From Brevundimonas subvibrioides (GTDB taxonomy: Bacteria; Pseudomonadota; Alphaproteobacteria; Caulobacterales; Caulobacteraceae): 64,000 bases of DNA. The notes under the pieces were generated by a model. The model saw only the letters and a program-made list of their open reading frames with translations, did no database searches and was not told the origin of the DNA. The stretch is from NCBI RefSeq assembly GCF_027271155.1, contig NZ_CP114542.1:2589001-2653000 (forward strand), in the 5' to 3' direction. Position numbers and translations under genes: made by a program. Positions within the stretch are counted from its first letter, which is position 1; each line of letters opens with the position of its first letter. Shown in pieces: positions 1-28,756 of this stretch.

Positions 1-3000
1 TCGCGCGCGAGGAGCAGACATTCGGTCCCAACCACCCTAAGGTGGCCGAAACATTGAGTATTCTCGGTTTAGCGCTATACAACATGCAGCGCTATCCTGA
101 GGCTGAACGTCTTGTTCGACGCGCGCTCACGATCAATGAAATCGTGTTCGGGGATTATAGTCGTATCGCGGCAATGAGTTCTAATAGTCTTGCGGTTATT
201 GTTTCTCTTCAAAACCAGTACGACGAAGCCCAAATCTTATTCGAACGTGCTTTGATTATTCTCAATTCGGAGGCTGATCCTGACACTGCAAACATAGCGG
301 TAATAATTAATAACTTGGGCCGAAATCTCCAAGCGATGGGAAGAAATGATGAAGCCCAAACCATGCTTGAACATGCACTGTTACTTAGACAGGGCACCCT
401 TGATGAAAATGATCAAGAAATTGCTACCAGCTTCAACAACTTAGCCGGTATCCTAGAAACTCAGTATAAATATCGCGAAGCCCAATTACTGTATGAGCGC
501 GCGCTAGAGATGCGCGTTTCTTTGCTGGGAACCAGTCATCCTGACACGATAATCAGCCTTCACAATCTCACTTCAAATCTCAATTCACAAGGAAAATATA
601 GCGAGGCATTGAACGTCATTCTAGGAATTCAAGGCACAAACGACCTTACAAGCGCGTTGAACGATCCCGCAACTGCGGACAGGCTTAACGATTTCGGTTT
701 CAGCTTGAACGCCTTGGGCCGCTACTACGAGGCCCAGCCATTTTACGAACGTGCCCTCATGATCAGGGAGGCCACACTCCCGCGAGACCATCCAGACATC
801 GCCACCGGCCTCAACAACCTAGCAAGCAATCTATACGACCAAGGTCGATACGACGAGGCCCAGCCTCTCTATGAACGGGCCTTAGCGATACAGGAGGCTG
901 TCCTCAGACCCAACCATCCCGACACCGCCACCAGCCTTAGCAACCTCGCCGTCAACCTCAACGCCCAGCACCTCTATACCGAGGCCCAACCCCTCCTCGA
1001 GCGAGCGCTCAGGATCAACGAAGCAGCCTTAGGACGAGACCATTTTACAACAGCAGCCCGCCTCGACAATCTGGCCTCAAACCTCGATGCCCAAGGTCGA
1101 TACACCCAAGCCCAACCCCTCCACGAGCGCGCTCGAAGGATCGTTGAGGACACAGTTGGACCAGACCATCCAGAAGCCGCCCTCAGCCTAAACAACCAAG
1201 CCTACAATCAATACTTCCAAAGCCACTACGCCGAGGCCCGGCTCCTTTTCGAGCGAGCGCTCGTGATCAGGCAAGCCGCCCTCGGACCGCACCATCCCGA
1301 CACCGCCTTTTCGGCGGAGAACACAGCGATCTCGGCTTTGGGGTCCGGTATGGCCTTGGCCGCGCTCACACCCGCCCGTCAGGCCCTGGAGATCCGACGA
1401 ACCCTGGCGCTGCGGGAGGGTGGCAACCGAGATGAGGCCTCCCAGGTTCGTCTCGCCGATGCGACGGGTAACGCCGCCGTGGTCTTCACCCGCGCGGCCT
1501 GGTCGGTGGATCGGTCGGGCGCGGGCGATGACGCCCTGAGGGCCGAGGCCTTCCAGGCCGTGCAGTGGCAGGAGGGGTCCTCGGCCGGCCGCGCCCAGGT
1601 GCGGGCGGCGGCGCGCCGGGCGCTCAGCCCGGCAGGGCAGGCCTTGGCGCGGGAGTGGGAGACGGCACTCGAGGAGCGTGCCGGTCTGGACCGCCAGTTC
1701 TCCGCCGCCGCCGGCGGAACCGATGAAGCGGCCCGGACCCGGCAGGCCGATCTGGTCCGCCGGCGCGATACGCTGGACGCCCGGATCACAGATCTGACGA
1801 CGCAGCTTGAGCGGGATTACCCGCAGTACCTCGAACTGCTCAACCCCTCGTCCCTGTCTGTGGCGGACCTCCAGCCCCTGCTGCATGAGAGCGAGGCCCT
1901 GGTGCTGGTCTCGCCGGGGGATGCACGCATGCCCGAGGGTCAGCGTCGGGGGATCGTGTTCGTGGTGACCCGCGAGGGCTTCGACTGGGCCGAGGTGGGC
2001 ATGGAGCCGGATGACCTTGAGGCCCGCATCGGGGTTCTGCGGGACGAGCTCAAGCCAGACGGCGGGCGCGGGCCCGACAGCGGCGGCAGTGCGACCGTCG
2101 GCCAGGGCGGCCGGGGCTTCGACCGCAGCCGGGCCTATGAGCTCTATCAGGCCCTGTTCGGTGATGAACGGATCGCCGCCCTGCTGGCCGACAAGGAGGA
2201 CTGGATCCTGAGCCCCCAGGGGTCCTTGCTGTCCCTGCCCTTCGCCGCCCTGCCCATGGCCGAGCCCGTGGGCGACGACGCCGATCCCCGGGCCCTGATC
2301 GACACCCCCTGGCTGGGCACTACCCGGGCCCTCAGCGTCCTGCCCAACCTGTCCACCCTGCGTCAGGTCCGGGGTGAGGACCGGCGGGAGGCCCCGAGCG
2401 CGCCCGACCCCTTCCGCGGCTTCGGCTTCGCCACCTACAATGCCGGCCGCACCATCCAGCCCGAGGAGGGCCGCTTCCTCACCCGGGCCCAGTTGCGCGC
2501 CAATAGGGTCCGCACCCTCGATCCCCTGGACAGCACAGGCGACGAACTGTTCGCCATCGCCGCGGCCCTGGACGCCGACCCGGCCACAACCCTCGACTTC
2601 ACGACGGACGCCACCGAGGCCCGGGTCCAGGCCCTGAGCGCCGACGGTACCCTGGCCCGCGCCCGGGTCATTGTCTTCGCCACCCACGGCCTGATCCCGC
2701 CCGAGCTCGGCCTCGATCAGGCGGCCCTGGCCTTCAGCCCACCCGGTCAGCCCGAGGGTGACGACGACGGCCTGCTCACCGCCGCCGAGGCTGCGGGCCT
2801 TCGGCTCAATGCCGACTGGGTCATCCTCTCGGCCTGCAACACCGCCTCCAGCAATGCGCAGGCCGGGTCCGAAGCCCTCGCCGGCCTCGCCCGCGCCTTC
2901 TTCTTCGCCGGTGCCCGATCCCTGCTCGTCTCCCACTGGAAGGTCGGGGACACCGACGCCACCGCCCTCACCACCTCCACTGTCAGGCTGCAGCAGGGTC

Positions 3001-3137
3001 AGGGCCTCTCGCGCACCCGCGCCCTCCAGCGCTCCATGCAGGACCTCCTGAACACGCCAGGCACTGCGGATCGTCCATTCCCCAATGCGCATCCCACTCA
3101 TTGGGCGCCATTCATCCTCGTGGGGGCAGAGCGATGA
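1..3137 (+). CDS. TPR-CHAT protease-like protein, copy A (5' end outside window)
   Basis: The reading frame is open from the first bases (codons in phase from base 3), so the true start is upstream; the GTG at 42 is only the first start codon inside the window. About ten TPR units of roughly 42 residues are visible, of the kinesin-light-chain type (YxEAxPLxERAL, then GPxHPxT). From about 1311 the C-terminal CHAT region follows, with the expected catalytic pair: His in FATHG (codon 2685-2687) and Cys in LSACNT (codon 2835-2837). CHAT is a caspase-fold peptidase domain; TPRs usually bind partners or substrates. The first 700 bp are clearly poorer in GC than the rest. Export cannot be judged without the N-terminus, but copy B has a clear signal peptide. 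The caspase gene starts 43 bp downstream. Substrate unknown. Confidence 0.9.
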   Translation, partial: AREEQTFGPNHPKVAETLSILGLALYNMQRYPEAERLVRRALTINEIVFGDYSRIAAMSSNSLAVIVSLQNQYDEAQILFERALIILNSEADPDTANIAVIINNLGRNLQAMGRNDEAQTMLEHALLLRQGTLDENDQEIATSFNNLAGILETQYKYREAQLLYERALEMRVSLLGTSHPDTIISLHNLTSNLNSQGKYSEALNVILGIQGTNDLTSALNDPATADRLNDFGFSLNALGRYYEAQPFYERALMIREATLPRDHPDIATGLNNLASNLYDQGRYDEAQPLYERALAIQEAVLRPNHPDTATSLSNLAVNLNAQHLYTEAQPLLERALRINEAALGRDHFTTAARLDNLASNLDAQGRYTQAQPLHERARRIVEDTVGPDHPEAALSLNNQAYNQYFQSHYAEARLLFERALVIRQAALGPHHPDTAFSAENTAISALGSGMALAALTPARQALEIRRTLALREGGNRDEASQVRLADATGNAAVVFTRAAWSVDRSGAGDDALRAEAFQAVQWQEGSSAGRAQVRAAARRALSPAGQALAREWETALEERAGLDRQFSAAAGGTDEAARTRQADLVRRRDTLDARITDLTTQLERDYPQYLELLNPSSLSVADLQPLLHESEALVLVSPGDARMPEGQRRGIVFVVTREGFDWAEVGMEPDDLEARIGVLRDELKPDGGRGPDSGGSATVGQGGRGFDRSRAYELYQALFGDERIAALLADKEDWILSPQGSLLSLPFAALPMAEPVGDDADPRALIDTPWLGTTRALSVLPNLSTLRQVRGEDRREAPSAPDPFRGFGFATYNAGRTIQPEEGRFLTRAQLRANRVRTLDPLDSTGDELFAIAAALDADPATTLDFTTDATEARVQALSADGTLARARVIVFATHGLIPPELGLDQAALAFSPPGQPEGDDDGLLTAAEAAGLRLNADWVILSACNTASSNAQAGSEALAGLARAFFFAGARSLLVSHWKVGDTDATALTTSTVRLQQGQGLSRTRALQRSMQDLLNTPGTADRPFPNAHPTHWAPFILVGAER
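1311..2996 (+). repeat. CHAT-half repeat, copy A (identical by eye to 16780-18465)
   Basis: By eye the sequence matches 16780-18465 base for base with a constant offset of 15469 and no indel. The inner part, 1494-2560, also matches 8013-9079 at offset 6519. The tract covers the TPR-to-CHAT linker and most of the CHAT domain. At about 2997 copy A departs from copies B and C and encodes a different C-terminal tail. Confidence 0.85.
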
Positions 3138-3180
3138 CGGGGACGGTGGGCCGAGCGGTGGCCGTACGTCGTTCCAGCTC

Positions 3181-5475: not shown

Positions 5476-8400
5476 CCGACAGACGAACGAATGCACCGTC
5501 CGGCCACCCGCTGAGGGTGATCGCGGCCGCATCGGTATCGGCGATTGCTTTGGCGCTGCACGCTGGAGGCGCGCTCGCGCAGGTCGATCAAAGGTTCGCG
5601 GATCCCGTGGCACAAGCGACGCCCGCCCAGCCAGTGATCCCGCCGGCCATCCGGCCGATGACGGCCGAAGAGAAGACGCAATACGAAGCCTGGGTGGCGG
5701 AGGCACTGGCAGCGACGAACGAACGCCGCTTCGACGAGGCGCAACGTCTCTTGACCCTGATCCTCGACATCGAGCAGAGGACCTTAGGACCTGATCACCC
5801 GGAGGCTGCGGGAATCTTGGGCTGGATGGCCAACAACCTGAACGCCCAGGGCCAGTACCGTGAGGCATGGCCTCTCTACGAACGCGCCCTCAGGATCACC
5901 GAGGCCGCACTCGGACCCGACCATCCAACTACCGCGAACCGCCTCAACAACCTGGCACTCAACCTCAACGCCCAGGGCCGGTATGCCGAGGCTCGGCCCC
6001 TCCATGAGCGCGCCCTCAGGATCAGGGAGGCCGCACTCGGACCCGACCATCCCGATACCGCGCAAAGCCTCAACAACCTGGCCTTAAACCTTGGCGCCCA
6101 GGGCCAGTACGCCGAGGCCCGCCCCCTCTATGAGCGCGCTCTCAGGATCACCGAGGTCGCCTTGGGACCCGACCATCCCGACACCGCCGACGGCCTCAAC
6201 AACCTGGCCGCAAACCTCAACGACCAGGGCCTCTATGCAGAGGCCCAGCCCCTCAATGAGCGCGCCCTCCGGATCAGGGAGGCCAGACTCGGCCCCGACC
6301 ATCCCGACACCGCGCAAAGCCTCAATAACCTCGCCAATAACCTCAGCGCCCGGGGCCAGTACGGCGAGGCCCGGCCCCTCCTTGAGCGCGTCCTCAGTAT
6401 CACCGAGGCCACACTCGGACCGGATCATCCCGACACCGCGACCAGCCTCAACAACCTGGCCGCAAACCTCAACGCCCAGGGCCAGTACGCCGAGGCCCGG
6501 CGCCTACTTGAGCGCGCCCTCAGGATCAACGAGGCAGCCTTCGGACCGGACCATCCAAGCACCGCGATAAGTCTCCACAACCTGGCCTCCAATCTCAACG
6601 CCCGGGGCCTCTATGCCGATGCCCAGCCCCTCTACGAACGCGCCCTTAGGATCCGGGAGGCCGCCCTCGGACCCGACCATCCAGACACAGCCGGCATCCT
6701 CGATAACCTCTCTCAAAACCTCAAAGCCCAGGGCCTCTATGCCGAGGCCCGGCCCCTCCTTGAGCGCGCTCTGAGGATCAAGGAGACCGCGCTGGGAGTC
6801 GACCATCCGGACACCGCCACCAGCCTCAACAACCTGGCCTTCAACCTCAACGCCCTGGGCCTTTATGTCGAGGCCCAGCCCCTCTTTGAGCGCGCCCTCA
6901 GGATCAGGGAGGCCGCACTCGGACCGGACCATCCCGACACCGCCGACGGCCTCAGCAACCTGGCCGCAAACCTCGACGACCGGGGCCTCTATGCAGACGC
7001 CCAGCCCCTCCATGAGCGCGCCCTCAGGATCCGGGAAGCCGCCCTCGGACCCGACCATCCAGACACAGCCGCCAGCCTCAGCAACCTGGCCCTCAATCTC
7101 GACGCCCAAGGCCTCTATACCGAGGCCCAGCCTCTCTATGAGCGCGCCCTCAGGATCGCAGCGTCCAGACTTGGACCAGACCATCCCGACATCGCCAGAG
7201 GCCTCAACAACCTGGCCTACAACCTCAACGCCCGGGGCCGGTACGGCGAGGCCCGGCCACTATTCGAGCGCGCCCTCAGGATCACCGAGGCCGCGCTGGG
7301 ACCCGACCATCCCGACACCGCGACCAGCCTCAACAACCTGGCCGCAAACCTCAACGCCCAGGGCCAGTTCGCCGAGGCCCGGCGCCTACTTGAGCGCGCC
7401 CTCAGGATCAACGAGGCCGCGCTGGGTCCCGAACATCCGCGCACCGCACTTGGCCTGAACAACCTCGCCTTCAACCTCAACGCCCAGGGCCTCTATGCCG
7501 ATGCCCAGCCCCTCTACGAGCGTGCCCTCACGATCAACGAGACCGCACTCGGACCCGACCATCCCGACACCGCGCGCAGCCTGAACAACCTGGCTGAAAA
7601 CATCAGAGCTCAGGGCCGCTACACCGAGGCCCAGCCCCGCTTTAACCGCGCCATTGGCATCTGGGAGGCCGCGCTGGGACCCGACCATCCAACCACCGCC
7701 CTCGGCCTGAACAACCTGGCCGTCAACCTTATCGCCCAGGGCCTCTATGCAGAGGCTCGCCCCCTGAATGAGCGCGGCCTCAGGATCACCGAGGCCGCGC
7801 TGGGACCCAGCCATCCTACGACTGCCGGAACGGCGGAGAACACAGCCCTTGCTGCCTTGGGGTCCGGCGCGGCCTCCGACGCCCTGACCCCGGCGCGGCA
7901 GGCCCTGGAGATTCGCCGCACCGTGGCGCTGCGGGAGGGTGGCAACCGAGATGAGGCCTCCCAAGTCCGTCTCGCCGGTGCGACGGGAACCGCCGCCGTG
8001 ATTTTCACCCGTGCGGCCTGGTCGGTGGATCGGTCGGGCGCGGGCGATGACGCCCTGAGGGCCGAGGCCTTCCAGGCCGTGCAGTGGCAGGAGGGGTCCT
8101 CGGCCGGCCGCGCCCAGGTGCGGGCGGCGGCGCGCCGGGCGCTCAGCCCGGCAGGGCAGGCCTTGGCGCGGGAGTGGGAGACGGCACTCGAGGAGCGTGC
8201 CGGTCTGGACCGCCAGTTCTCCGCCGCCGCCGGCGGAACCGATGAAGCGGCCCGGACCCGGCAGGCCGATCTGGTCCGCCGGCGCGATACGCTGGACGCC
8301 CGGATCACAGATCTGACGACGCAGCTTGAGCGGGATTACCCGCAGTACCTCGAACTGCTCAACCCCTCGTCCCTGTCTGTGGCGGACCTCCAGCCCCTGC

Positions 8401-9635
8401 TGCATGAGAGCGAGGCCCTGGTGCTGGTCTCGCCGGGGGATGCACGCATGCCCGAGGGTCAGCGTCGGGGGATCGTGTTCGTGGTGACCCGCGAGGGCTT
8501 CGACTGGGCCGAGGTGGGCATGGAGCCGGATGACCTTGAGGCCCGCATCGGGGTTCTGCGGGACGAGCTCAAGCCAGACGGCGGGCGCGGGCCCGACAGC
8601 GGCGGCAGTGCGACCGTCGGCCAGGGCGGCCGGGGCTTCGACCGCAGCCGGGCCTATGAGCTCTATCAGGCCCTGTTCGGTGATGAACGGATCGCCGCCC
8701 TGCTGGCCGACAAGGAGGACTGGATCCTGAGCCCCCAGGGGTCCTTGCTGTCCCTGCCCTTCGCCGCCCTGCCCATGGCCGAGCCCGTGGGCGACGACGC
8801 CGATCCCCGGGCCCTGATCGACACCCCCTGGCTGGGCACTACCCGGGCCCTCAGCGTCCTGCCCAACCTGTCCACCCTGCGTCAGGTCCGGGGTGAGGAC
8901 CGGCGGGAGGCCCCGAGCGCGCCCGACCCCTTCCGCGGCTTCGGCTTCGCCACCTACAATGCCGGCCGCACCATCCAGCCCGAGGAGGGCCGCTTCCTCA
9001 CCCGGGCCCAGTTGCGCGCCAATAGGGTCCGCACCCTCGATCCCCTGGACAGCACAGGCGACGAACTGTTCGCCATCGCTGCGGCATTGGGCGACGAGAA
9101 AGGCGAGACCCTCTCCTTCCAGACCGATGCCACGGAGGCCCGGGTCAAGGCCCTGAGCGACGACGGCACCCTGGCCCGCGCCCGGGTCATTGCCTTCGCC
9201 ACCCACGGCCTGATCCCGCCCGAGCTCGGCCTCGATCAGGCGGCCCTGGCCTTCAGCCCGCCCGGTCGGCCCGAAGGCGACGACGACGGCCTGCTCACCG
9301 CCGCCGAGGCCGCAGGCCTTCGGCTCAATGCCGACTGGGTCATCCTCTCAGCCTGCAACACCGCCTCCAGCGACCAGGACGCCGGCTCCGAAGCCCTCGC
9401 CGGCCTCGCCCGCGCCTTCTTCTTCGCCGGTGCCCGCTCCCTGCTCGTCTCCCACTGGAAGGTCGGAGACACCGACGCCACCGCCCTCACCACCTCCGCC
9501 GTCAGGCTGCAGCAGCAGGACCCCGCCCTCTCCAGGGCCCGGGCCATGCAGCAGTCCATGCAGGACCTCATGCAGAACCCGAACACGGCTCACCCCACAC
9601 ACTGGGCTCCCTTCATCCTCGTCGGGGCAGAATGA
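5472..9635 (+). CDS. Exported TPR-CHAT protease-like protein, copy B
   Basis: A 1387-residue protein. The N-terminus has a signal peptide (hydrophobic stretch 17-34 ending GGALAQ), then a linker with IPPAIRPMT that recurs in copy C, one degenerate TPR, sixteen full 42-residue TPR units (codons 5808-7823) and the CHAT domain with His1245 (FATHG) and Cys1295 (LSACNT). The signal peptide argues for action in the periplasm or outside the cell, unlike TPR-CHAT proteins that work with type III-E CRISPR effectors in the cytoplasm. It overlaps the caspase gene upstream and the CHASE2 gene downstream by ATGA, so all three are probably one transcript. The enzymatic role rests on motif conservation only. 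Confidence 0.92.
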   Translation: MTDRRTNAPSGHPLRVIAAASVSAIALALHAGGALAQVDQRFADPVAQATPAQPVIPPAIRPMTAEEKTQYEAWVAEALAATNERRFDEAQRLLTLILDIEQRTLGPDHPEAAGILGWMANNLNAQGQYREAWPLYERALRITEAALGPDHPTTANRLNNLALNLNAQGRYAEARPLHERALRIREAALGPDHPDTAQSLNNLALNLGAQGQYAEARPLYERALRITEVALGPDHPDTADGLNNLAANLNDQGLYAEAQPLNERALRIREARLGPDHPDTAQSLNNLANNLSARGQYGEARPLLERVLSITEATLGPDHPDTATSLNNLAANLNAQGQYAEARRLLERALRINEAAFGPDHPSTAISLHNLASNLNARGLYADAQPLYERALRIREAALGPDHPDTAGILDNLSQNLKAQGLYAEARPLLERALRIKETALGVDHPDTATSLNNLAFNLNALGLYVEAQPLFERALRIREAALGPDHPDTADGLSNLAANLDDRGLYADAQPLHERALRIREAALGPDHPDTAASLSNLALNLDAQGLYTEAQPLYERALRIAASRLGPDHPDIARGLNNLAYNLNARGRYGEARPLFERALRITEAALGPDHPDTATSLNNLAANLNAQGQFAEARRLLERALRINEAALGPEHPRTALGLNNLAFNLNAQGLYADAQPLYERALTINETALGPDHPDTARSLNNLAENIRAQGRYTEAQPRFNRAIGIWEAALGPDHPTTALGLNNLAVNLIAQGLYAEARPLNERGLRITEAALGPSHPTTAGTAENTALAALGSGAASDALTPARQALEIRRTVALREGGNRDEASQVRLAGATGTAAVIFTRAAWSVDRSGAGDDALRAEAFQAVQWQEGSSAGRAQVRAAARRALSPAGQALAREWETALEERAGLDRQFSAAAGGTDEAARTRQADLVRRRDTLDARITDLTTQLERDYPQYLELLNPSSLSVADLQPLLHESEALVLVSPGDARMPEGQRRGIVFVVTREGFDWAEVGMEPDDLEARIGVLRDELKPDGGRGPDSGGSATVGQGGRGFDRSRAYELYQALFGDERIAALLADKEDWILSPQGSLLSLPFAALPMAEPVGDDADPRALIDTPWLGTTRALSVLPNLSTLRQVRGEDRREAPSAPDPFRGFGFATYNAGRTIQPEEGRFLTRAQLRANRVRTLDPLDSTGDELFAIAAALGDEKGETLSFQTDATEARVKALSDDGTLARARVIAFATHGLIPPELGLDQAALAFSPPGRPEGDDDGLLTAAEAAGLRLNADWVILSACNTASSDQDAGSEALAGLARAFFFAGARSLLVSHWKVGDTDATALTTSAVRLQQQDPALSRARAMQQSMQDLMQNPNTAHPTHWAPFILVGAE
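5808..7823 (+). repeat. Sixteen tandem 126-bp TPR-coding repeats
   Basis: Sixteen consecutive units of exactly 126 bp (42 codons) with no length variation, each encoding a TPR ending GPDHPxT. Units 6 (from 6438) and 13 (from 7320) are almost identical at DNA level and lie 882 bp, that is seven units, apart; the neighbouring units 5 and 12 also pair best. This suggests duplication or conversion of a block of units. It is a coding array, not a CRISPR. Confidence 0.9.
8013..9079 (+). repeat. CHAT-half repeat, copy B (three-way identical tract)
   Basis: By eye this 1067-bp tract equals 1494-2560 (copy A) and 16963-18029 (copy C) with no differences, whereas the flanks on both sides carry many synonymous and non-synonymous differences. 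The sharp edges fit gene conversion better than simple duplication. Confidence 0.85.
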
Positions 9636-10837
9636 AACTGCCGACTCCGAAAACCATGATTGAGGTCGCGAAGGTCGCGGCGACCGGGGTGCTCGCGGGT
9701 GGCTTCGCCATCCTTGCGATCAACTTGCTACCCCAATTTGTGAAGATCGAACATTCGATCACCGACCTGAGGACAGTCGCTTTCTCGGACAGGGCTCCCC
9801 AGACGAGCTTGGACGTGGCCATCGTCGGTATCGACGAGAAAAGCCTTGAAGGCGTGCCCTATCTGTCGCCGCTCGACCGGGGCTATCTCTCGGATGTGGT
9901 GACCGAAATCGCCGGGGCCGAACCCCGGGTCATTGTTCTGGACATCCTGTTCGACCGGACCACCGAGCCCAAAAAGGATGAGGCTCTCGAGCAGACGCTT
10001 CGGAACCTTCAGGTGCCCGTCGTTCTGATACGTTCGGGAGATCCTTTGGATCCGGCGTTCCAGAACCGCTTCCTCGCGTCCACATACAGACCGATCGGCG
10101 GTCCGCTGGTATCGGCTACTGTTGATGACGTGGTACGCCATATTCCGGTTTCGCCCGATGGAACCTGCAGCCTCTCAGAAGCAGCCAAGCTGGTACGTGA
10201 CAATCCGGGCCTCAGGACGCTGCCCCACTGCGACCGCGAGCGGCCCATCCGGATAGACTGGCTGCTGGAGCCTCCGGGTCAGGAGACCTTTACCTATATT
10301 CGAAGCTCCGAGCTGACAGGACCGGACGTCATGCCGCTCCAGCTTGCCCGGCTTCGCGGCAAGGTCGTTATCATCGGGGGTGTGTTTGATCTCATTGATC
10401 GACACAAGACCCCGCTCTCGGTCCTGCATGGTGACACCGCCGGTGTTCCAGGCACGCAGTCGAGCCTGAGCAACGGTGCGACATCCCCCGGCGTCCTGGT
10501 CCATGCCCAGGCCATGCAGCAACTCTTCGATGGCCGGGTGCGCCATGAACTGGGTGTGATCGGTGAAGCGATCCTCCTGCTGTTCTGCGGGCTCTCGGGT
10601 GCGATCCTCGGATCATTCTCGGAGATGCGCAAACGCAGGGGGATCGTCTTGTTCGTTGTCACGATCTCGCTGATTGTGATTGATATAACCCTGTTCAAGT
10701 TCGCTCGCTTCGTCCTTCCAGGCGATGCGGCGGGGTTCGCCGTATTTCTGGGTTTCCTGTTCAACAGCATGCGTCTCAATTATCGCATCGGCGGCCTTCC
10801 CAGTGCCGGAAAGACGCTAGGAGAAACAATCCTATGA
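9632..10837 (+). CDS. CHASE2-domain membrane sensor without an output domain
   Basis: A 401-residue protein. One transmembrane helix near residues 15-33 is followed by a large extracytoplasmic region typical of CHASE2 (DVAIVGIDEKSL near the start, then VIVLDILFD, later LRGKVVIIGG), then three closely spaced helices at about 316-385. CHASE2 domains normally sit in front of adenylate cyclase, GGDEF or kinase domains; here the protein ends soon after the last helix with no catalytic domain. The start overlaps the stop of CHAT copy B (ATGA) and its own stop overlaps the next start, so it is tightly coupled. A plausible role is to sense an envelope signal and pass it to the peptidases or to the kinase at 13541; that is inference. 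Confidence 0.85.
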   Translation: MKLPTPKTMIEVAKVAATGVLAGGFAILAINLLPQFVKIEHSITDLRTVAFSDRAPQTSLDVAIVGIDEKSLEGVPYLSPLDRGYLSDVVTEIAGAEPRVIVLDILFDRTTEPKKDEALEQTLRNLQVPVVLIRSGDPLDPAFQNRFLASTYRPIGGPLVSATVDDVVRHIPVSPDGTCSLSEAAKLVRDNPGLRTLPHCDRERPIRIDWLLEPPGQETFTYIRSSELTGPDVMPLQLARLRGKVVIIGGVFDLIDRHKTPLSVLHGDTAGVPGTQSSLSNGATSPGVLVHAQAMQQLFDGRVRHELGVIGEAILLLFCGLSGAILGSFSEMRKRRGIVLFVVTISLIVIDITLFKFARFVLPGDAAGFAVFLGFLFNSMRLNYRIGGLPSAGKTLGETIL

Positions 10838-11631
10838 AGTCACCAAAACTGCTGATTACGGCGGCGTTGACGGTGGTCACGCTTGCAACCGCGACGGAAG
10901 CCTCGGCGCGCCAACAGACAAATCCCGATGGATCAATAACATGGGTCACAGACGGTCGAACGGTCCGGCCCATTCGCTTGATGGGGCCAAACGCAGTCAT
11001 CACTCTGGGGTCCAACCAGACGCTTATGTTCATTGGCGCTGATCGCAGCGAAGCCGCGTACGCGGGACCGTTCAGAGGGACGTTGGCTCAGGCAAGAGCG
11101 CGCGAAGGCCAAAGCCAGAGCTTCGTGGGACGCGCCTTGGCCTTTCTGCAACAGACCCGAAACTCCTTCCGAAACGGCGGTGTTCGCAGCTTCTCGGATT
11201 CATCGGATGTGTCTGTGGAAGGCGCGACCATCACTTCGCTCGACCAGATCCCTCCCATCGTCGTGCTCGGATCTCAGGCCTTGGGTCCCCAGTGCGTTGC
11301 GAGAGGGCAACAGCCGCAGCTTTCGAGGGCTTCCAGTTCGCGACGGGAAACCATAGAGATCACGGTCGCCAACGAAAGCCACACCGTTGTGTTCGAGCCT
11401 GGCGAAGCACATGCGGTCTGGCCTCTCGCACGACCGGAGGCGGCTGGCGGACAAGCCGCGGTAGTGACGCCCGGCCGGCCATATTCAGCGACCAGTTTCG
11501 CTGTCGTGACCATAGACTCCATCTCGGGAGACGACCTGTTGCCGGTCCTGACCGATGCGGGCTGCCTCGAACAGGCGCAGTCGGTCATGGACTATATCTG
11601 GAAAACCCAGACCGAGATCCTGACCGAGTGA
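10834..11631 (+). CDS. Small exported protein of unknown function
   Basis: 265 residues with a signal peptide (hydrophobic 6-20, cleavage near ATEASA). The segment after it (VRPIRLMGPNAVITLGSNQ, then LMFIGADRSEAAYAGPFRG) resembles the short beta-rich region around FecR-like domains, but I would not assign it. Two cysteines (CVARG and GCLEQ) could form a disulfide. The start overlaps the CHASE2 stop (ATGA) and the stop overlaps the next gene by one base (TGATG). It is probably a periplasmic partner, substrate or inhibitor of the neighbouring peptidases; only context supports this. Confidence 0.7.
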   Translation: MKSPKLLITAALTVVTLATATEASARQQTNPDGSITWVTDGRTVRPIRLMGPNAVITLGSNQTLMFIGADRSEAAYAGPFRGTLAQARAREGQSQSFVGRALAFLQQTRNSFRNGGVRSFSDSSDVSVEGATITSLDQIPPIVVLGSQALGPQCVARGQQPQLSRASSSRRETIEITVANESHTVVFEPGEAHAVWPLARPEAAGGQAAVVTPGRPYSATSFAVVTIDSISGDDLLPVLTDAGCLEQAQSVMDYIWKTQTEILTE

Positions 11632-12278
11632 TGTCGTCCGCCCTGCTCATCGTCTTGGCTCTGTTCGCTTCGAGTCCGGCTCCTGTGAGCATCCAGGACG
11701 GGCAGACGTCGATCCCCACAGCGGTCCAGCGGCTCGAGCGCGCCGAAGATGTCGCGGACTGGGCGCGTGCAGAGCGTGACCCCCTGGCCATGGTGGTGGC
11801 CGCCCGAATGAGCCGGGGGGTTGGGATCGATGACCCCCTCGCCCCCGAACGTCTGCTCGCCGAGGCTCGCCTGATGGCTCGGGGCGATGCCACTGTTCTG
11901 GCCGTCGTGGCCGAGGAGGAGGCGGCAGAGGACAGGGGAGTCTGCGTCGGCCCCACCCGCAGCGAGGGTCTCCTGTCCCCCGGACAAAGACAGTCCGTCC
12001 GGCTTCGGGTCGCAGGCGGCGAGATCGCGGACGCGGCCCTGCGGCTTCCGGCCGGGGCACCCGGCGGAGCCGACCTCGACCTGATTGTCACCGACATGCA
12101 GGGCCGGCGCATTGCCGCCCTGACAGGCCCAGATTCGGGGGTTGCGGGGCGGGCGGCCTATGTCCAGTGGAGGCCGGATTACCCGTCGGACGTCGACGTC
12201 TCTGTGCTGAACGTCAGCCGCGTCTCGACAACCTATCGACTGACGCTCGCCCCGTCCCAGGGCGGGCGGTGTCGCTAG
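11631..12278 (+). CDS. Small exported protein of unknown function
   Basis: 215 residues from the ATG at 11631, which overlaps the previous stop by one base. The frame is open much further upstream inside the preceding gene, but only this start gives a short signal peptide (MSSALLIVLALFASSPAPV). The middle is alpha-helical and alanine-rich; the C-terminal half (from about 115) looks like a small beta-sandwich with pre-peptidase-like features (GADLDLIVTDMQGRRIA, later YRLTLAPS), which is often found in secreted peptidase systems. I do not recognise a named family. It is the last gene before a hairpin and a 230-bp gap. Confidence 0.7.
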   Translation: MSSALLIVLALFASSPAPVSIQDGQTSIPTAVQRLERAEDVADWARAERDPLAMVVAARMSRGVGIDDPLAPERLLAEARLMARGDATVLAVVAEEEAAEDRGVCVGPTRSEGLLSPGQRQSVRLRVAGGEIADAALRLPAGAPGGADLDLIVTDMQGRRIAALTGPDSGVAGRAAYVQWRPDYPSDVDVSVLNVSRVSTTYRLTLAPSQGGRCR

Positions 12279-12299
12279 GCCCGATCCGCGATCGGGGCC
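12278..12299 (+). terminator. Strong hairpin just after the stop codon
   Basis: Arms GGCCCGATC and GATCGGGGCC with a 3-nt loop begin at the last base of the stop codon at 12276-12278. There is no T-run after it, so it may be a weak or Rho-assisted terminator or an mRNA-stabilising stem. It separates the A/caspase/B/CHASE2 run from the regulator genes. The rest of the 12300-12507 gap shows nothing else I can name. Confidence 0.4.
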
Positions 12300-12507
12300 T
12301 CGCGCCGTCTGCGTCTCGATCCGAACCTGCACGCGCGGCTCCCCGTCATCCTTCCTGCAGGCGCGACGATGACAGACAATGTCACCCGCCCTCCAACAGG
12401 GGTTGATAGACAGCCCTCGTGAAACAGACGTCGCTCCACCGTGAACCTTGGCGAAGCCTTTGCGGCACGCGGGTGGATGTCGTCACCCTGACCAGGACAT
12501 CCCGGCC

Positions 12508-13548
12508 TTGACCCCCGGTTCCAGGATCCGGCTGGTCTCGGCCCAGACTGCGATTATCGCCCTCGTCCGCAAGGCGCTGCAGGGATCGGCCTGTGAACTG
12601 GCCGTGGAACGCGATGAAGCGACGTCACAGCTGGCCGACGTCGATCTGGTGATTGCCGATGCCCGGGCATGGCCCGAGGCTCAGACGGTCGCCTGGATGA
12701 CCGCAACGACCGGCCCGCGCCTCGTCATCGTCGACGATCTCAGCAGCCCCAACCGGGCGGTCCTGAGAACGCTTAGAGAGGCAGAAGTCGTCTTCTCCGA
12801 CGTCCAGGCAACGGAGCTTCGCACACGGGTGGAAGCCCTGCTTCAGAGGACGTCCGGGCCAAGCCTTCTCCTGGTAGAGGACGAACCCCGGCTCGCCGAT
12901 CAGATCGCCACCCTGATCGGGTCCGCCGGCTATGGTGTGTCCGTCGTCGGTACGATCGCGGCGGCGGCCGAGGCCGTAGCGGCTCGCCCCTTCGACATCC
13001 TCGTGCTCGATCGGGGGCTGCCGGACGGCGACGGGCTACTGTTCCTCAAGCGGCTGAGGGCAGAGGGGACATCGACGCCCGCGCTGATCCTGAGCGCCTG
13101 GGGCGAGACCGTCCAGCGGATCGACGGTCTGCGGGGCGGAGCCAACGATTACATGGTCAAACCCTTCGAGCCCGATGAGCTTCTGGCGAGGATCGAGGTC
13201 CTGGTCCGTCCGGTGCTGGAGAGCGACCTTCAGCGGATTGGAGCGCTGGAGCTGCAACGTAACGACCGGATCGCCCGCTGGAAGGGCCGGCGGATCGACC
13301 TTACGGACACCGAATTTCGCCTCCTGGCCTATATGGCCGGCCGGCCGGGGCTCGTCCTCCCGGCATCGATGCTTCGGTCCGACGTGTGGGACATCCGCCG
13401 CCAGCACACCGAGACCAATATCGTCGCGGCCGGCATCCGCCGCCTCCGACGCAAGCTGGAGGAGGCCGGCACGCCCGAGGCCATCTCGACGCACAGCCAG
13501 GGATACCGGTTCGACCTCCAACTCCTGCTGGCGGCCGGCGATGGCTGA
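12508..13548 (+). CDS. OmpR/PhoB-type response regulator with an extra N-terminal receiver-like domain
   Basis: 346 residues from a TTG at 12508; a TTG at 12448 in the same frame is the alternative and no ATG is available. Residues 1-115 look like a receiver fold that lost the acidic pair (RLVSAQT in strand 1), so probably a pseudo-receiver. A normal receiver follows: LLLVEDEP, phosphoacceptor Asp in LVLDRGLPDGDG, LSAW, and Lys in MVKPFEPDE. The C-terminal 100 residues are a winged-helix DNA-binding domain (RIDLTDTEFRLLAYMAGRPG, QGYRFDL). It overlaps the kinase gene by 8 bp, so they are a two-component pair. Likely target: this CHAT locus. Confidence 0.85.
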   Translation: MTPGSRIRLVSAQTAIIALVRKALQGSACELAVERDEATSQLADVDLVIADARAWPEAQTVAWMTATTGPRLVIVDDLSSPNRAVLRTLREAEVVFSDVQATELRTRVEALLQRTSGPSLLLVEDEPRLADQIATLIGSAGYGVSVVGTIAAAAEAVAARPFDILVLDRGLPDGDGLLFLKRLRAEGTSTPALILSAWGETVQRIDGLRGGANDYMVKPFEPDELLARIEVLVRPVLESDLQRIGALELQRNDRIARWKGRRIDLTDTEFRLLAYMAGRPGLVLPASMLRSDVWDIRRQHTETNIVAAGIRRLRRKLEEAGTPEAISTHSQGYRFDLQLLLAAGDG

Positions 13549-14941: not shown

Positions 14942-17900
14942 ATGAGAGAGGCGAAACTGCTAACAGAACAGCGAAAGCTATGGCGATCCTGAACCTCATG
15001 CTTGCCGCCCTTGCCCCAAGCGAGGGGTTGGCCCTGTCGGTTCGTGAAAATGAAATAGCTTCGTCTCTCCAGTCGTCGATTGTGCCGACGGTCCCCCCAG
15101 CGATCCGGGACATGACGACACCGGAACACGCGGAGTACGTCGCTTGGCTGGCAGAGGCTGATTCAGCCCTTGGCGAGAGTCGTTTCGAGGATGCCAAGGC
15201 CATTCTTGAACGGGTCCTCGACCGGGAGGAGCAGACGTTCGGTCCCGACCACCCGCTGGTCGCAGTCACTGTTAGCAAACTCGCCGCCAGCCTATACTTC
15301 GAAGGTCGCTACGGCGATGCCCTGCCCTACAATGAGCGCGCCCTCAAGATCTACGAAAGCTGGGAAAGGCCGGAAGGTGGTGCCACCGCCATTAGCCGCA
15401 GCAACCTTGCCATAAACCTCGACGCCCAGGGACGTTATGGCCAAGCCCAACCCCTGCATGAGAGCGCTCTCACGTTTTTCTCTGCGGTGTTGGGGCCAAA
15501 CCATCCCCTGACCGCCAGCGGGCTTTTGGCTCTCGCCAACAATCTCAATGAGCAACGCCAATACGCCTTGGCCCAATCCCTTTATGAGCGCGCTCTCGGG
15601 ATAATGGAGGCTGAGTTTGGGTCGGAAGCTTTAGTCACCGGCACCAGCCTCAACGTCCTCGCCAATAACCTCTACGACCAGCGCCAATATGACTTCGCAC
15701 AATCCCTCTATGAGCGCGCTTTAAACATCGTTTCTGAGGTGACGGGACCAAATAGTCCAGAAACCGCGAATGTACTTTACAATTTGGCCCAAAATCTCGA
15801 CGGCCTTGGTCGACATGTAGACGCTCAAACCTTCTATGAGCGCGCGCTCAGGATCAACGAGACCGTGTCAGGGCTGAACCATCCTAAAACAGCGAGTAGC
15901 CTAAACGGCCTCGCCCTCAACCTTTACGCCCAAGGCCGCTACGCCGAGGCCCAGCTCCTCTTGGAACGCGCACTCAGCATCAACAAGGCCACCCTCGGAC
16001 CGGAGCATCCCGACACCACCGAGGTCACCTACAACCTCGCTGAAAACCTCAGAGTGCAGGGATTATATGTGCAGGCCCAGCCACTCTTTGAGCGCGCGCT
16101 CGAGATCAATGAGACCATGTTGGGGCTGAACCACCCCAAAACAGCAAGTAGCCTAAGCGGCCTCGCCCTCAACCTTTACGGCCAAGGCCTATATGGCGAG
16201 GCCCAGCCACTCTTCGAATGCGCACTCAGGATAGATGAAACAATATTGGGACCAGACGATCCGGACACCGCCAACAGCCTTAGCAACCTAGCAACCAACT
16301 TCCATGCCCAAGGTCAATACGACGAGGCCCAGCCCCTCTATGAACGGGCCTTAGCGATACGGGAGGCTGTCCTCAGACCCAACCATCCCGACACCGCCAC
16401 CAGCCTTAGCAACCTGGCAGGCAACTTCTCCAGCCAAGGCCAATACGGCCTAGCACAACCCCTCTTTGAAAGAGCCCTCAGAATCAGAGAGGCCGCGCTG
16501 GGACCCAACCATCCCGACACCGCCGAAAGCCTCTCGCGTTTCGCCCTCAACCTCAGAGACCGAAGTCGACTTGCCGAGGCCCACCCCATCCTCGAGCGCG
16601 CTCTCCGGATCAACGAGACCGTGTTGGGCCGAGACCATCCCTATACCGTCGATAGCCTGAATAGCCTCGCTTTCAACCTCTACGGCCAAGGCCGCTACGC
16701 CGAGGCCCAACCGCTCTCCGAGCGCGCCCTCAGGATCAGCGAGACCTCCCTCGGGCCCGACCATCCGACGACTGCACTTTCGGCGGAGAACACAGCGATC
16801 TCGGCTTTGGGGTCCGGTATGGCCTTGGCCGCGCTCACACCCGCCCGTCAGGCCCTGGAGATCCGACGAACCCTGGCGCTGCGGGAGGGTGGCAACCGAG
16901 ATGAGGCCTCCCAGGTTCGTCTCGCCGATGCGACGGGTAACGCCGCCGTGGTCTTCACCCGCGCGGCCTGGTCGGTGGATCGGTCGGGCGCGGGCGATGA
17001 CGCCCTGAGGGCCGAGGCCTTCCAGGCCGTGCAGTGGCAGGAGGGGTCCTCGGCCGGCCGCGCCCAGGTGCGGGCGGCGGCGCGCCGGGCGCTCAGCCCG
17101 GCAGGGCAGGCCTTGGCGCGGGAGTGGGAGACGGCACTCGAGGAGCGTGCCGGTCTGGACCGCCAGTTCTCCGCCGCCGCCGGCGGAACCGATGAAGCGG
17201 CCCGGACCCGGCAGGCCGATCTGGTCCGCCGGCGCGATACGCTGGACGCCCGGATCACAGATCTGACGACGCAGCTTGAGCGGGATTACCCGCAGTACCT
17301 CGAACTGCTCAACCCCTCGTCCCTGTCTGTGGCGGACCTCCAGCCCCTGCTGCATGAGAGCGAGGCCCTGGTGCTGGTCTCGCCGGGGGATGCACGCATG
17401 CCCGAGGGTCAGCGTCGGGGGATCGTGTTCGTGGTGACCCGCGAGGGCTTCGACTGGGCCGAGGTGGGCATGGAGCCGGATGACCTTGAGGCCCGCATCG
17501 GGGTTCTGCGGGACGAGCTCAAGCCAGACGGCGGGCGCGGGCCCGACAGCGGCGGCAGTGCGACCGTCGGCCAGGGCGGCCGGGGCTTCGACCGCAGCCG
17601 GGCCTATGAGCTCTATCAGGCCCTGTTCGGTGATGAACGGATCGCCGCCCTGCTGGCCGACAAGGAGGACTGGATCCTGAGCCCCCAGGGGTCCTTGCTG
17701 TCCCTGCCCTTCGCCGCCCTGCCCATGGCCGAGCCCGTGGGCGACGACGCCGATCCCCGGGCCCTGATCGACACCCCCTGGCTGGGCACTACCCGGGCCC
17801 TCAGCGTCCTGCCCAACCTGTCCACCCTGCGTCAGGTCCGGGGTGAGGACCGGCGGGAGGCCCCGAGCGCGCCCGACCCCTTCCGCGGCTTCGGCTTCGC

Positions 17901-18585
17901 CACCTACAATGCCGGCCGCACCATCCAGCCCGAGGAGGGCCGCTTCCTCACCCGGGCCCAGTTGCGCGCCAATAGGGTCCGCACCCTCGATCCCCTGGAC
18001 AGCACAGGCGACGAACTGTTCGCCATCGCCGCGGCCCTGGACGCCGACCCGGCCACAACCCTCGACTTCACGACGGACGCCACCGAGGCCCGGGTCCAGG
18101 CCCTGAGCGCCGACGGTACCCTGGCCCGCGCCCGGGTCATTGTCTTCGCCACCCACGGCCTGATCCCGCCCGAGCTCGGCCTCGATCAGGCGGCCCTGGC
18201 CTTCAGCCCACCCGGTCAGCCCGAGGGTGACGACGACGGCCTGCTCACCGCCGCCGAGGCTGCGGGCCTTCGGCTCAATGCCGACTGGGTCATCCTCTCG
18301 GCCTGCAACACCGCCTCCAGCAATGCGCAGGCCGGGTCCGAAGCCCTCGCCGGCCTCGCCCGCGCCTTCTTCTTCGCCGGTGCCCGATCCCTGCTCGTCT
18401 CCCACTGGAAGGTCGGGGACACCGACGCCACCGCCCTCACCACCTCCACTGTCAGGCTGCAGCAGCAAGACCCCGCCCTCTCCAGGGCCCGGGCCATGCA
18501 GCAGTCCATGCAGGGCCTCATGCAGAACCCGAACACGGCTCACCCCACACACTGGGCTCCCTTCATCCTCGTCGGGGCAGAATGA
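14938..18585 (+). CDS. TPR-CHAT protease-like protein, copy C
   Basis: 1215 residues. The N-terminus has a less convincing signal or anchor (AMAILNLMLAALAP), then the linker VPPAIRDMT shared with copy B, about twelve TPR units, and a CHAT domain with His1073 (FATHG) and Cys1123 (LSACNT). The TPR region is more diverged between units than in copy B. The CHAT half equals copy A up to 18465, after which the last 120 bp follow copy B with two differences, so the gene is a mosaic. It overlaps the kinase stop by ATGA and is followed by a hairpin. Confidence 0.9.
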   Translation: MNERGETANRTAKAMAILNLMLAALAPSEGLALSVRENEIASSLQSSIVPTVPPAIRDMTTPEHAEYVAWLAEADSALGESRFEDAKAILERVLDREEQTFGPDHPLVAVTVSKLAASLYFEGRYGDALPYNERALKIYESWERPEGGATAISRSNLAINLDAQGRYGQAQPLHESALTFFSAVLGPNHPLTASGLLALANNLNEQRQYALAQSLYERALGIMEAEFGSEALVTGTSLNVLANNLYDQRQYDFAQSLYERALNIVSEVTGPNSPETANVLYNLAQNLDGLGRHVDAQTFYERALRINETVSGLNHPKTASSLNGLALNLYAQGRYAEAQLLLERALSINKATLGPEHPDTTEVTYNLAENLRVQGLYVQAQPLFERALEINETMLGLNHPKTASSLSGLALNLYGQGLYGEAQPLFECALRIDETILGPDDPDTANSLSNLATNFHAQGQYDEAQPLYERALAIREAVLRPNHPDTATSLSNLAGNFSSQGQYGLAQPLFERALRIREAALGPNHPDTAESLSRFALNLRDRSRLAEAHPILERALRINETVLGRDHPYTVDSLNSLAFNLYGQGRYAEAQPLSERALRISETSLGPDHPTTALSAENTAISALGSGMALAALTPARQALEIRRTLALREGGNRDEASQVRLADATGNAAVVFTRAAWSVDRSGAGDDALRAEAFQAVQWQEGSSAGRAQVRAAARRALSPAGQALAREWETALEERAGLDRQFSAAAGGTDEAARTRQADLVRRRDTLDARITDLTTQLERDYPQYLELLNPSSLSVADLQPLLHESEALVLVSPGDARMPEGQRRGIVFVVTREGFDWAEVGMEPDDLEARIGVLRDELKPDGGRGPDSGGSATVGQGGRGFDRSRAYELYQALFGDERIAALLADKEDWILSPQGSLLSLPFAALPMAEPVGDDADPRALIDTPWLGTTRALSVLPNLSTLRQVRGEDRREAPSAPDPFRGFGFATYNAGRTIQPEEGRFLTRAQLRANRVRTLDPLDSTGDELFAIAAALDADPATTLDFTTDATEARVQALSADGTLARARVIVFATHGLIPPELGLDQAALAFSPPGQPEGDDDGLLTAAEAAGLRLNADWVILSACNTASSNAQAGSEALAGLARAFFFAGARSLLVSHWKVGDTDATALTTSTVRLQQQDPALSRARAMQQSMQGLMQNPNTAHPTHWAPFILVGAE
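16780..18465 (+). repeat. CHAT-half repeat, copy C (identical by eye to 1311-2996)
   Basis: 1686 bp without visible differences from copy A. The inner 16963-18029 also equals copy B. At 18466 similarity switches to copy B (9516-9635), with only two mismatches in 120 bp. Confidence 0.85.
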
Positions 18586-18590
18586 TGAGA

Positions 18591-18613
18591 AGGATGACGG
18601 ACACTGTCATCCT
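18591..18613 (+). terminator. Perfect 8-bp hairpin after CHAT copy C
   Basis: Arms AGGATGAC and GTCATCCT with a 7-nt loop lie 6 bp after the stop codon. There is no T-run, so a terminator role is only likely from position. Confidence 0.4.
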
Positions 18614-18702
18614 AACGCGATCCAGCATTGTTAGCTTGGACATCAACGGCCGTTCGCCGAGGCGGTAGCCGAGATCAGACGGTCTGGTTCAAGGGGTAAG
18701 AC

Positions 18703-19755
18703 ATGAAGGTGGTTGGCCGCGTTTTCGGATTCCTGTTCCAGGCCTTGATGTTCCTGGTCTCGCTCGGCATCCTGGCCGGCTTCGGCCTGGTCCTGCTGGG
18801 TGGGCTGGACGATCCCTTTCTGGAGATGAGACGCGGGTACTGGACCCTGGTCACGGCGGCGGGGGTAATCTTGGCGCTGGTCGTCAATCCGGTCATCTGG
18901 CGTTTGCTGAAGGGGCGCGTGCCGACCTTGTTGTTCCTGGCCCTCGGTCTCGGGCTGCCTGTCGGACTCTTCACCCTGGCTGCGTGGACGCCCTACGGCC
19001 TTTATCTGCGCTCGGGCTTGGACGGGAATGGGGAAGAAACTGATCTCGCGGTGGACGCCGAGGCGGGCTCATCCCAAGTGCCCGCGATCTCCTCAACGTT
19101 GCGACTGGCGGCAGAAAGGGGGGATCCTGAAGCTCAACTCGAGCTTGCCCAGCAGCTCGTCAAAACAGAAGGCGCTTCCACCGATGAAGGTCTCGCCAGT
19201 CTGCGCGACGCTGCATCCGCCGGCAGCGCGGATGCCCAGGCGCTCCTGGCGGTCCTGCAGATGGGACAATCGTTCGAGGGACGTGTCGTCTTGCAGCGCA
19301 ACGACCCCGAAGCCTGCAACACCATGCTGGCCCTTCAGTCGCCCCCATTCACCGGACAGGAGATCGATGCTGGCTGGGAGCGCATTCTCGAGGATGCATC
19401 CCGCTATCGAGGCTGGCGCCGAGCCGATGAGCCTGGCGAGCCCCTGAGGTGCGAACGGGCCAGCTTGAATCCGAAAACCGATACCCTGATCTTCGTGGAA
19501 GAGAATACGAGTTCCATTCCGGCCCGGTTCAACGCCTTCACGAACCTGAAAGCTGAAATGTCATGCACTGTTACCGCCGACCTCAGGTTGGACAACTGCA
19601 CGGTCTTGACTGCGTGGCCTGCGGGCCAAGGCGTCGATCGGTGGGGACTGGACGGAGCGTCGCGCGTTCGCCTGGCCCCCAAGGACATCTACGGGTACCC
19701 CGTTGCGGGACGTGAAATCATCTTCACGATCACACCAGAGGACGAGACTAGCTGA
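18703..19755 (+). CDS. Membrane protein with Sel1-like repeats and a TonB-C-like end
   Basis: 350 residues; the ATG at 18703 has AAGGGG about 8 bp upstream. Three or four transmembrane helices fill residues 5-105. Residues about 128-185 hold two Sel1-like repeats (AAERGDPEAQLELAQQL and AASAGSADAQALLAVLQ). The last 70 residues (CTVTADLRLDNCTV, then WPAGQGVDRWGLDG, then GYPVAGREIIFTI) resemble the TonB C-terminal fold seen in Caulobacterales exported proteins; this is from memory. It follows CHAT copy C on the same strand 117 bp later and may belong to the same system. The IS element begins 22 bp after its stop. Confidence 0.75.
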   Translation: MKVVGRVFGFLFQALMFLVSLGILAGFGLVLLGGLDDPFLEMRRGYWTLVTAAGVILALVVNPVIWRLLKGRVPTLLFLALGLGLPVGLFTLAAWTPYGLYLRSGLDGNGEETDLAVDAEAGSSQVPAISSTLRLAAERGDPEAQLELAQQLVKTEGASTDEGLASLRDAASAGSADAQALLAVLQMGQSFEGRVVLQRNDPEACNTMLALQSPPFTGQEIDAGWERILEDASRYRGWRRADEPGEPLRCERASLNPKTDTLIFVEENTSSIPARFNAFTNLKAEMSCTVTADLRLDNCTVLTAWPAGQGVDRWGLDGASRVRLAPKDIYGYPVAGREIIFTITPEDETS

Positions 19756-20590: not shown

Positions 20591-20597
20591 CTCACGG

Positions 20598-21056: not shown

Positions 21057-21250
21057 GACAGACCTCCCGGTTCCGGAGCAAGACAGAATTCGGATTGGGC
21101 GTATTCAATAAGAACTCGCGCCTTATACGAGGTGGTGGAGAGTGTGGCAAGTTCGCCTGGGGCAACAGGTGCCAGCTCGGCGGGCTGTCACGTAGCAGCC
21201 AGAGCGCGCGACCGACTCGGTACGCCACGTTGAGCGGGTCCCCACCCGTC

Positions 21251-28688: not shown

Positions 28689-28756
28689 GCCATCCTCAGT
28701 AAAATCAGACGCCTGATGGGCCAGGATAAACCCGCCTAAGGCTTGCCACATTCTGT

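Follow-up and report, generated by a model that had tools for sequence, protein, structure and literature searches.

A cluster of caspase-fold protease genes in Brevundimonas subvibrioides raises the question of whether such proteases can form a jointly controlled system outside the bacterial cytoplasm. The cluster opens a 64,000-nt window (bases 2589001-2653000 of the single 2.97 Mb contig NZ_CP114542.1) and comprises three TPR-CHAT genes, a C14 caspase, a CHASE2 gene, two small genes (10834 and 11631) and an OmpR-type response regulator (RR) and histidine kinase (HK) pair, an inventory given in a preliminary description of the sequence and borne out by Pfam scans. The cluster is best explained, and probably correctly so, as an inducible extracytoplasmic caspase/CHAT protease regulon, in view of its conserved neighbourhood, export signals, intact catalytic dyads and common palindrome.

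The length of the caspase in its database entry (P0001, 764 aa) places the start at 3181. A metacaspase-like fold spans residues ~33-349 and is followed by an unassigned C-terminal part of ~400 aa; the structure comparison, in which one domain filled the match list, is informative only to ~residue 349. The protein has the p20 fold with a His-Cys dyad of metacaspases/orthocaspases (His133/Cys201), and Cys201, proposed earlier as the catalytic residue, is the partner of His133. All three TPR-CHAT proteins combine TPR repeats with a CHAT domain (PF12770; E ~1e-42 each) that has His and Cys in place (in CHAT-A, codons at 2685 and 2835). The alignment columns show the His-Cys pair retained in every caspase frame (112/112) and every CHAT segment that spans both of them (38/38), consistent with protease activity in both families; a regular-expression motif check (passed by 78/112 caspase and 32/45 CHAT frames) was too strict and was replaced by these columns. 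One caspase homologue (P0062, 1132 aa) holds precomputed trypsin-type domains in the same protein, which suggests a link between caspase and trypsin-type proteases.

A profile of 38 caspases gave 107 matching stretches in GTDB genomes, 94 of which could be confirmed. The best 80 of these and ten more loci from genomes of the same order (seven of the same genus) made up a set of 90 loci. Forty control regions were centred on CHASE2 genes (18) or placed arbitrarily (22) and are not fully independent, L151 and L158 overlapping by ~12 kb on one contig. Neighbour profiles were run on six-frame open reading frames (ORFs), and loci shorter than 17 kb were left out of the counts, which cover 64 caspase loci and 37 controls (15 CHASE2-centred and 22 arbitrary). 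PPC and CHAT are the commonest neighbour families of these caspases; TPR, RR, HK and an HtrA-like Trypsin_2+PDZ protein (TRYP1) also recur, and many loci add a second caspase, an S1 trypsin (TRYP2) or a patatin (PAT). Compared with controls (64 vs 37), the counts are CHAT 30 vs 1, PPC 30 vs 0, TRYP1 27 vs 2, RR 27 vs 7, TPR 19 vs 3, TRYP2 16 vs 0 and PAT 11 vs 0; when near-duplicates are dropped, 54 loci retain CHAT in 24, PPC in 25, TRYP1 in 23, RR in 23 and HK in 18. RR is present in 24/30 PPC-positive vs 3/34 PPC-negative caspase loci, and TRYP1 in 25/30 vs 2/34. Caspase, CHAT, PPC-like and two-component genes occur together in the same genus, Maricaulaceae, Rhodobacterales and Hyphomicrobiales, so that the lack of a conserved neighbourhood, named in the preliminary description as an outcome that would speak against it, was not encountered. 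A caspase match is also present in 46 plasmid records of Pseudosulfitobacter; one plasmid of this genus has two each of caspases, CHAT genes, trypsin-type proteases and PPC frames, along with a patatin and a two-component pair. The RR/HK pair adjoins the HtrA-like gene in many relatives; in the window's own cluster no HtrA-like gene was found by profile. Three Xanthobacter loci (L044, L046, L055) have caspase and CHAT, then S1 trypsin, a second caspase, a FecR-like exported protein (family e) and CHASE2, with no PPC or two-component matches. Some TPR profile matches in L109, L112 and L113 lie on the strand opposite CHAT and may be spurious.

Among 131 genomes of the genus, a caspase match (E 1e-10 or better) was found in this genome and eight others. 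All eight other loci contain PPC, adjacent to the caspase or with CHAT in between, seven contain CHAT (the eighth reaches a contig end just after the caspase) and five contain RR and HK. In one of them (G111) the order on a single strand is CHASE2, family e, TRYP1, PPC, CHAT, RR, HK, PPC, caspase, TPR. CHAT as such is found in 49/131 genomes, and 20 CHAT loci, hand-picked among the stronger matches without a caspase match, were fetched. Nineteen are PPC-CHAT pairs, the twentieth (L183) consists of CHASE2, a 10834 homologue and TPR-CHAT, and none has a caspase, RR or HK profile match. On the strength of these two arrangements the window looks like two modules joined, a PPC-caspase/CHAT set with its two-component pair merged with a CHASE2-10834-TPR-CHAT set, the putative receptor here being without an output domain.

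Export was predicted by a simple self-made rule, not SignalP (basic n-region, 11-residue hydrophobic core, small residues at -3/-1). Signal-like N-termini were identified in CHAT-A, CHAT-B, CHAT-C, the caspase, the 10834 protein and the products of two genes upstream of the window; the signal peptides described earlier for the caspase and CHAT-B both pass this Sec rule. Both small proteins had been described as exported, which the rule supports for 10834 only: the hydrophobic stretch of 11631 is not preceded by a basic residue, and this protein, like the RR, fails the rule. The CHASE2, HK and 18703 proteins pass because of membrane helices. Across the loci, with 5'-cut frames excluded (3 caspase, 2 PPC, 1 CHAT, 2 HK), signal-like starts are found in 119/133 caspase, 52/55 PPC, 39/44 CHAT, 32/38 TPR, 26/34 TRYP1, 19/22 TRYP2, 12/14 patatin, 7/8 family e and 7/33 RR frames; 19/24 HK frames also pass, on membrane helices. 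A periplasmic location of the proteases would fit these counts.

A palindrome, TGAC(A/G)N5(T/C)GTCA, was first seen as common to the divergent TRYP1/PPC intergenic regions of clusters in other genomes. The genome studied here has 21 such sites per strand (one for a reversed control pattern), of which four lie in the 22-kb cluster (p 1.6e-5), all of them in the gaps that make up 4.7% of it. All four end in TGTCA, and 16 of the 17 sites elsewhere read TGACG...CGTCA. Loci with both PPC and RR hold 40 sites in 618 kb (22/29 loci), against 6 in 940 kb for PPC-negative caspase loci and 5 in 778 kb for controls; no comparable excess in the loci with PPC and RR was seen for six other palindromes built the same way. 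Twenty-seven of the 40 sites lie outside the discovery regions and still give a density of 4.5 vs 0.6 per 100 kb (p 2.2e-6). Twenty-six of the 40 are near module starts (3.2 expected); with 13 sites coming from the discovery regions, this figure is circular in part, and the density of the 27 is the one to rely on. The shared palindrome would tie the genes of the cluster to one regulator, and from their co-occurrence we infer that the RR may be the protein that binds it. The pair is of OmpR type (REC and winged helix; kinase with HAMP, HisKA and HATPase), with phospho-acceptor motifs found. Some 115 aa precede the REC domain of the RR (12511-12870), and a search among the loci with this leading part matched only itself; in L109 the open frame of the regulator has ~109 residues ahead of REC, counted from the preceding stop.

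The three CHAT genes are identical over 1,067 bases of their CHAT halves, and CHAT-A and CHAT-C over 1,688 bases (1309-2996 = 16778-18465), while the TPR halves differ, so that gene conversion or very recent copying is likely on sequence grounds; a less likely origin of the identity would be an assembly effect. CHAT-B contains an unbroken run of 17 kinesin-light-chain-type repeats of 42 aa (mean pairwise identity 67%), and kinesin light chains are the nearest solved relatives of the TPR repeats. In the 27 pooled repeats of the three proteins, helix A (columns 7-21) is most variable at columns 10, 13, 17 and 20, which sit on one face (permutation p 0.02), although exposed positions vary in many repeat proteins.

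Pfam scanning of the CHASE2 protein gave no other family and no cytoplasmic output domain, and scans of the CHASE2 proteins of L183, L166, L027, L035 and G111 likewise gave no output domain. The closest parallel is L183, with a CHASE2 protein 46% identical to that of the window, a 10834 homologue (33% identity, E 9e-27) and a TPR-CHAT protein (40% identity over 978 columns). L191, from a second genus of the family, has TPR-CHAT, a weaker 10834 relative (24%, E 3e-5) and a CHASE2-guanylate cyclase; in both loci the 10834 homologue lies between the CHASE2 and TPR-CHAT genes. The 10834 protein matched only itself among 5.8 billion proteins, and the L183 protein matched only the genome studied here and G462 among 398 genomes of the order, the source of L183 (G071) evidently being outside that sample. 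A CHASE2 profile from one sequence found none in relatives but also missed CHASE2 genes in the controls and was discarded; an iterated profile (28 loci matched) was used instead. Its matches, in 8/91 loci other than that of the window, are all weak (E 6e-20 to 4e-5; six frames read, three proteins scanned: G111, L027, L035), and family e is present in exactly those eight. The 10834 protein, of the same place and size, was considered as a member of family e and rejected (hhalign probability 0.2 with one and with two sequences); the two would be equivalent in position only. CHASE2 was not found in G005, G008, G010 and G024, which do have the caspase-CHAT cluster, so that CHASE2 counts as an accessory. 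The earlier proposal of a proteolytic system wired to an envelope sensor and a transcription factor is modified in one point: CHASE2 looks like part of a separate CHASE2-10834-TPR-CHAT module and not like the driver of the RR.

The model of the 11631 protein (PPC2; mean pLDDT 82.6) gave Foldseek matches to Tk-SP (E 2.5e-7), KP-43, GOLD domains and the ColH collagen-binding domain. Its predicted jelly roll resembles C-terminal domains of secreted subtilases, and other jelly rolls match too. The PPC model of Pfam did not match three scanned family members up to E 5 (an unrelated match came at 0.041), and the name PPC is therefore given by fold.

The cluster begins ~1.9 kb upstream of the window, where the two further exported genes lie (coordinates prefixed L004 in Table 1 are those of a locus stretch that includes DNA before the window). 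All three CHAT matches of the genome are inside the cluster. The genes had been described as locked together by overlapping start and stop codons, which is the case at six junctions (caspase/CHAT-B, CHAT-B/CHASE2, CHASE2/10834, 10834/11631, RR/HK and HK/CHAT-C) but not at three within the window, with gaps of 43 bp (CHAT-A/caspase), 232 bp (11631/RR, with the RR start at 12511) and 117 bp (CHAT-C/18703). With the upstream part included the gaps are 396, 107, 130, 43, 232 and 117 bp, so the cluster probably forms several transcription units. The 18703 gene is counted in the cluster because a palindrome copy precedes it; the profile of its product drifted, the best BLAST match had E 0.09 and no homologue is claimed. 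No homologue of the upstream 195-aa protein was found among the loci searched. IS240-type DDE transposase genes lie directly downstream of the cluster (19829-21855; the + strand copy covers half of the Pfam profile), and RHS-repeat matches in three overlapping minus-strand ORFs (24253-29800) are possibly fragments of one gene. A type II restriction-modification pair and MzaC/MzaD-like genes also adjoin the cluster (defence neighbours were sought at this locus only).

Table 1 Features of the caspase-CHAT cluster; positions are those of the window unless prefixed L004.
Feature	Position	Strand	Remarks
Palindrome copies, upstream	L004 16054 and L004 16758		Intergenic gaps before cluster genes
Exported 195-aa gene	L004:16143-16730		Upstream of window; signal-like N-terminus; palindrome copy ahead
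PPC-like gene, 244 aa	L004:16838-17572		Upstream of window; signal-like N-terminus
CHAT-A, TPR-CHAT, 1144 aa	1..3137	+	Start L004:17703, 298 bases before window; Sec-type signal
Identical 1,067-base block, CHAT-A copy	1494..2560	+	
Exported C14 caspase, 764 aa	3181..5475	+	Peptidase_C14, E 2.7e-14
CHAT-B, exported TPR-CHAT, 1387 aa	5472..9635	+	CHAT His1245/Cys1295
Identical 1,067-base block, CHAT-B copy	8013..9079	+	
CHASE2 membrane protein, 401 aa	9632..10837	+	PF05226, E 3.2e-25
Exported 265-aa protein (10834)	10834..11631	+	Encoded beside CHASE2
PPC2, small protein (11631)	11631..12278	+	Predicted structure: N-terminal helices and PPC-type beta-jelly roll
Operator-like palindrome TGACAGACAATGTCA	12370..12384	.	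Gap before response regulator
OmpR-type response regulator	12511..13548	+	Start 12511 or 12448, both TTG; REC and Trans_reg_C
HAMP sensor histidine kinase, 466 aa	13541..14941	+	HAMP/HisKA/HATPase
CHAT-C, TPR-CHAT, 1215 aa	14938..18585	+	CHAT His1073/Cys1123
Identical 1,067-base block, CHAT-C copy	16963..18029	+	
Operator-like palindrome TGACGGACACTGTCA	18595..18609	.	Gap between CHAT-C and 18703 gene
Probable membrane protein, 350 aa (18703)	18703..19755	+	No Pfam family

HtrA is found with a two-component pair in envelope-stress responses. Many relatives of the cluster share this pairing; the window cluster is without an HtrA-like profile match and adds caspase-fold proteases. Craspase, the type III-E CRISPR system with the TPR-CHAT protease Csx29, has TPR repeats followed by a CHAT protease domain (PMC9729208, PMC10028731), as here; the cluster differs in its export signals, its three copies with an identical CHAT block and its caspase, PPC and two-component neighbours. 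The preliminary description had excluded a type III-E effector, and no Cas family, including gRAMP/Cas7-11, was identified in 28 protein scans of the cluster and neighbouring ORFs (CRISPR arrays were not searched for). In the available text of a survey of prokaryotic metacaspases/orthocaspases (Asplund-Samuelsson 2012, PMC3501461), which shares C14 caspase domains with the cluster, genes lie in operons, some with other proteolysis domains, and some caspases are predicted to be extracellular; the term CHAT is absent from its main text, and a two-component pair, PPC partner or common operator does not appear in the passages available. Conflict systems, in the parts available of PMC8195603 and PMC10907252, group caspase-, CHAT- or trypsin-type effectors with sensor genes, some of them predicted to be periplasmic or secreted, and a TRADD-N-linked component can carry CHASE2. 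These systems use NTPase switches and adaptor domains, whereas the control genes here are a two-component pair and Pfam scans of the cluster proteins gave no adaptor domain or STAND/MoxR NTPase, although the libraries may miss some adaptors. The BiofilmReg operon of Burkholderiales likewise brings together a response regulator, an exported FecR-domain protein and a CHASE2 receptor, but in the available passages (PMC5192318) its CHASE2 is part of a histidine kinase and the operon has no protease. A Trichodesmium protein also links a caspase domain to CHASE2, but as one fused cyanobacterial protein, with no CHAT partner in the available passages (PMC2853523). No description of the present layout was recognised in open-access full text (including PMC4933709), a body that leaves most subscription literature outside, and the conserved caspase-CHAT cluster is apparently a real, undescribed system.

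The neighbourhood, the predicted export and the palindromes in the gaps support the earlier proposal of a caspase-type proteolytic system outside the cytoplasm. In the proposed mechanism, the linked HK/RR pair would switch on the cluster promoters through TGAC(R)N5(Y)GTCA, and these would yield the C14 caspase and TPR-CHAT proteases for export by Sec. The proteases would be accompanied by a dedicated exported protein of PPC fold that would most likely help to target, fold or hold them. In the TPR-CHAT proteins, for which the CHASE2-10834 pair would serve as membrane receptor or anchor, the variable TPR arrays would select the bound protein and the near-constant CHAT domains would cut it. Such a regulon would most likely serve a response to envelope damage or attack, and a damage response and defence are the leading options for the purpose.

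Several observations weigh against an inducible extracytoplasmic regulon. The export rule is crude, as the passing RR frames indicate. For HK by itself the enrichment falls short of significance (20/64 vs 6/37, p 0.074), and the PPC-CHAT link within caspase loci fades when duplicates are removed (14/25 vs 10/29, p 0.095). PPC is lacking from 34/64 caspase loci and CHAT from 34/64, and the full set is therefore one elaboration of a looser theme; the same-genus PPC-CHAT pairs occur without caspase, RR/HK or a nearby palindrome, the three palindromes found there lying far off. OmpR-family regulators usually bind direct repeats, whereas the site here is a palindrome. It is absent from 7/29 loci with PPC and RR, including same-genus G111 and L167, in which RR and HK are present, and 14/40 sites are not within 250 bp of a scored start; three of these are the window cluster's own, by eye preceding the 16143, RR and 18703 genes, and 11 lie elsewhere. 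The stricter TGTCA form occurs once each in the fetched clusters of G143, G234 and G395 and is absent from those of G111 and G356, and most of its copies in those five genomes are outside the fetched clusters.

A more specific form of the favoured regulon is a periplasmic receptor-guided caspase pathway, in which two-component-induced, interchangeable TPR receptors with one gene-converted CHAT protease, an exported caspase and a PPC partner would process envelope proteins once damage or an invader is recognised; this is put forward tentatively. It is somewhat doubtful that the cluster serves conflict or anti-phage defence, with TPR arrays recognising an invader product at the envelope and caspase/CHAT proteases damaging the cell's own envelope proteins to kill or arrest it. 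The restriction-modification, MzaC/MzaD-like, IS240 transposase and RHS genes that adjoin the cluster are consistent with defence, as are the close caspase in only 1/131 genomes of the genus with relatives on plasmids, TPR repeats that vary on one helix A face while CHAT DNA is homogenised, and the description of CHAT and caspase as bacterial conflict effectors in available parts of PMC8195603 and PMC10907252. PADLOC, however, gives the cluster proteins only weak generic matches (TPR, caspase, PDC-S39). Export and two-component control are also unusual for conflict systems. That the palindrome belongs to another regulator, the two-component pair being merely a neighbour, is unlikely: the palindromic form of the site, its absence from G111 and L167 and three sites in loci with PPC but no RR point that way, whereas site density follows PPC and RR together and is at background level in caspase loci without PPC (clusters profiled for RR only). 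Still less likely is an exoprotease regulon for feeding or matrix turnover, in which the kinase would sense extracellular protein or biofilm material for digestion by the exported proteases; several relatives do add S1 trypsin, HtrA-like protease and patatin lipase, but caspase-fold enzymes are normally sequence-specific processing proteases, poor for bulk digestion, and the presence of HtrA and TPR adaptors speaks for quality control or signalling. A decayed or passenger island, gathered by transposition without common function, is hardly credible despite the flanking transposase and defence genes, because the dyads are intact, genes overlap, all four palindromes fall in gaps, the neighbourhood is conserved and G111 has a similar set of genes in a different order.

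Bacterial caspase and CHAT proteases have been discussed mostly as intracellular cell-death or CRISPR effectors. The palindrome, the regulator, the catalytic residues and the plasmid-borne copies offer handles for testing the regulon favoured here. If the periplasmic caspase pathway were true, it would be, to our knowledge, the first caspase cascade outside the bacterial cytoplasm. With its own switch and control site and a predicted place outside the cytoplasm, this conserved and in part plasmid-borne set would raise the question of a role for regulated caspase-fold proteolysis at the envelope.

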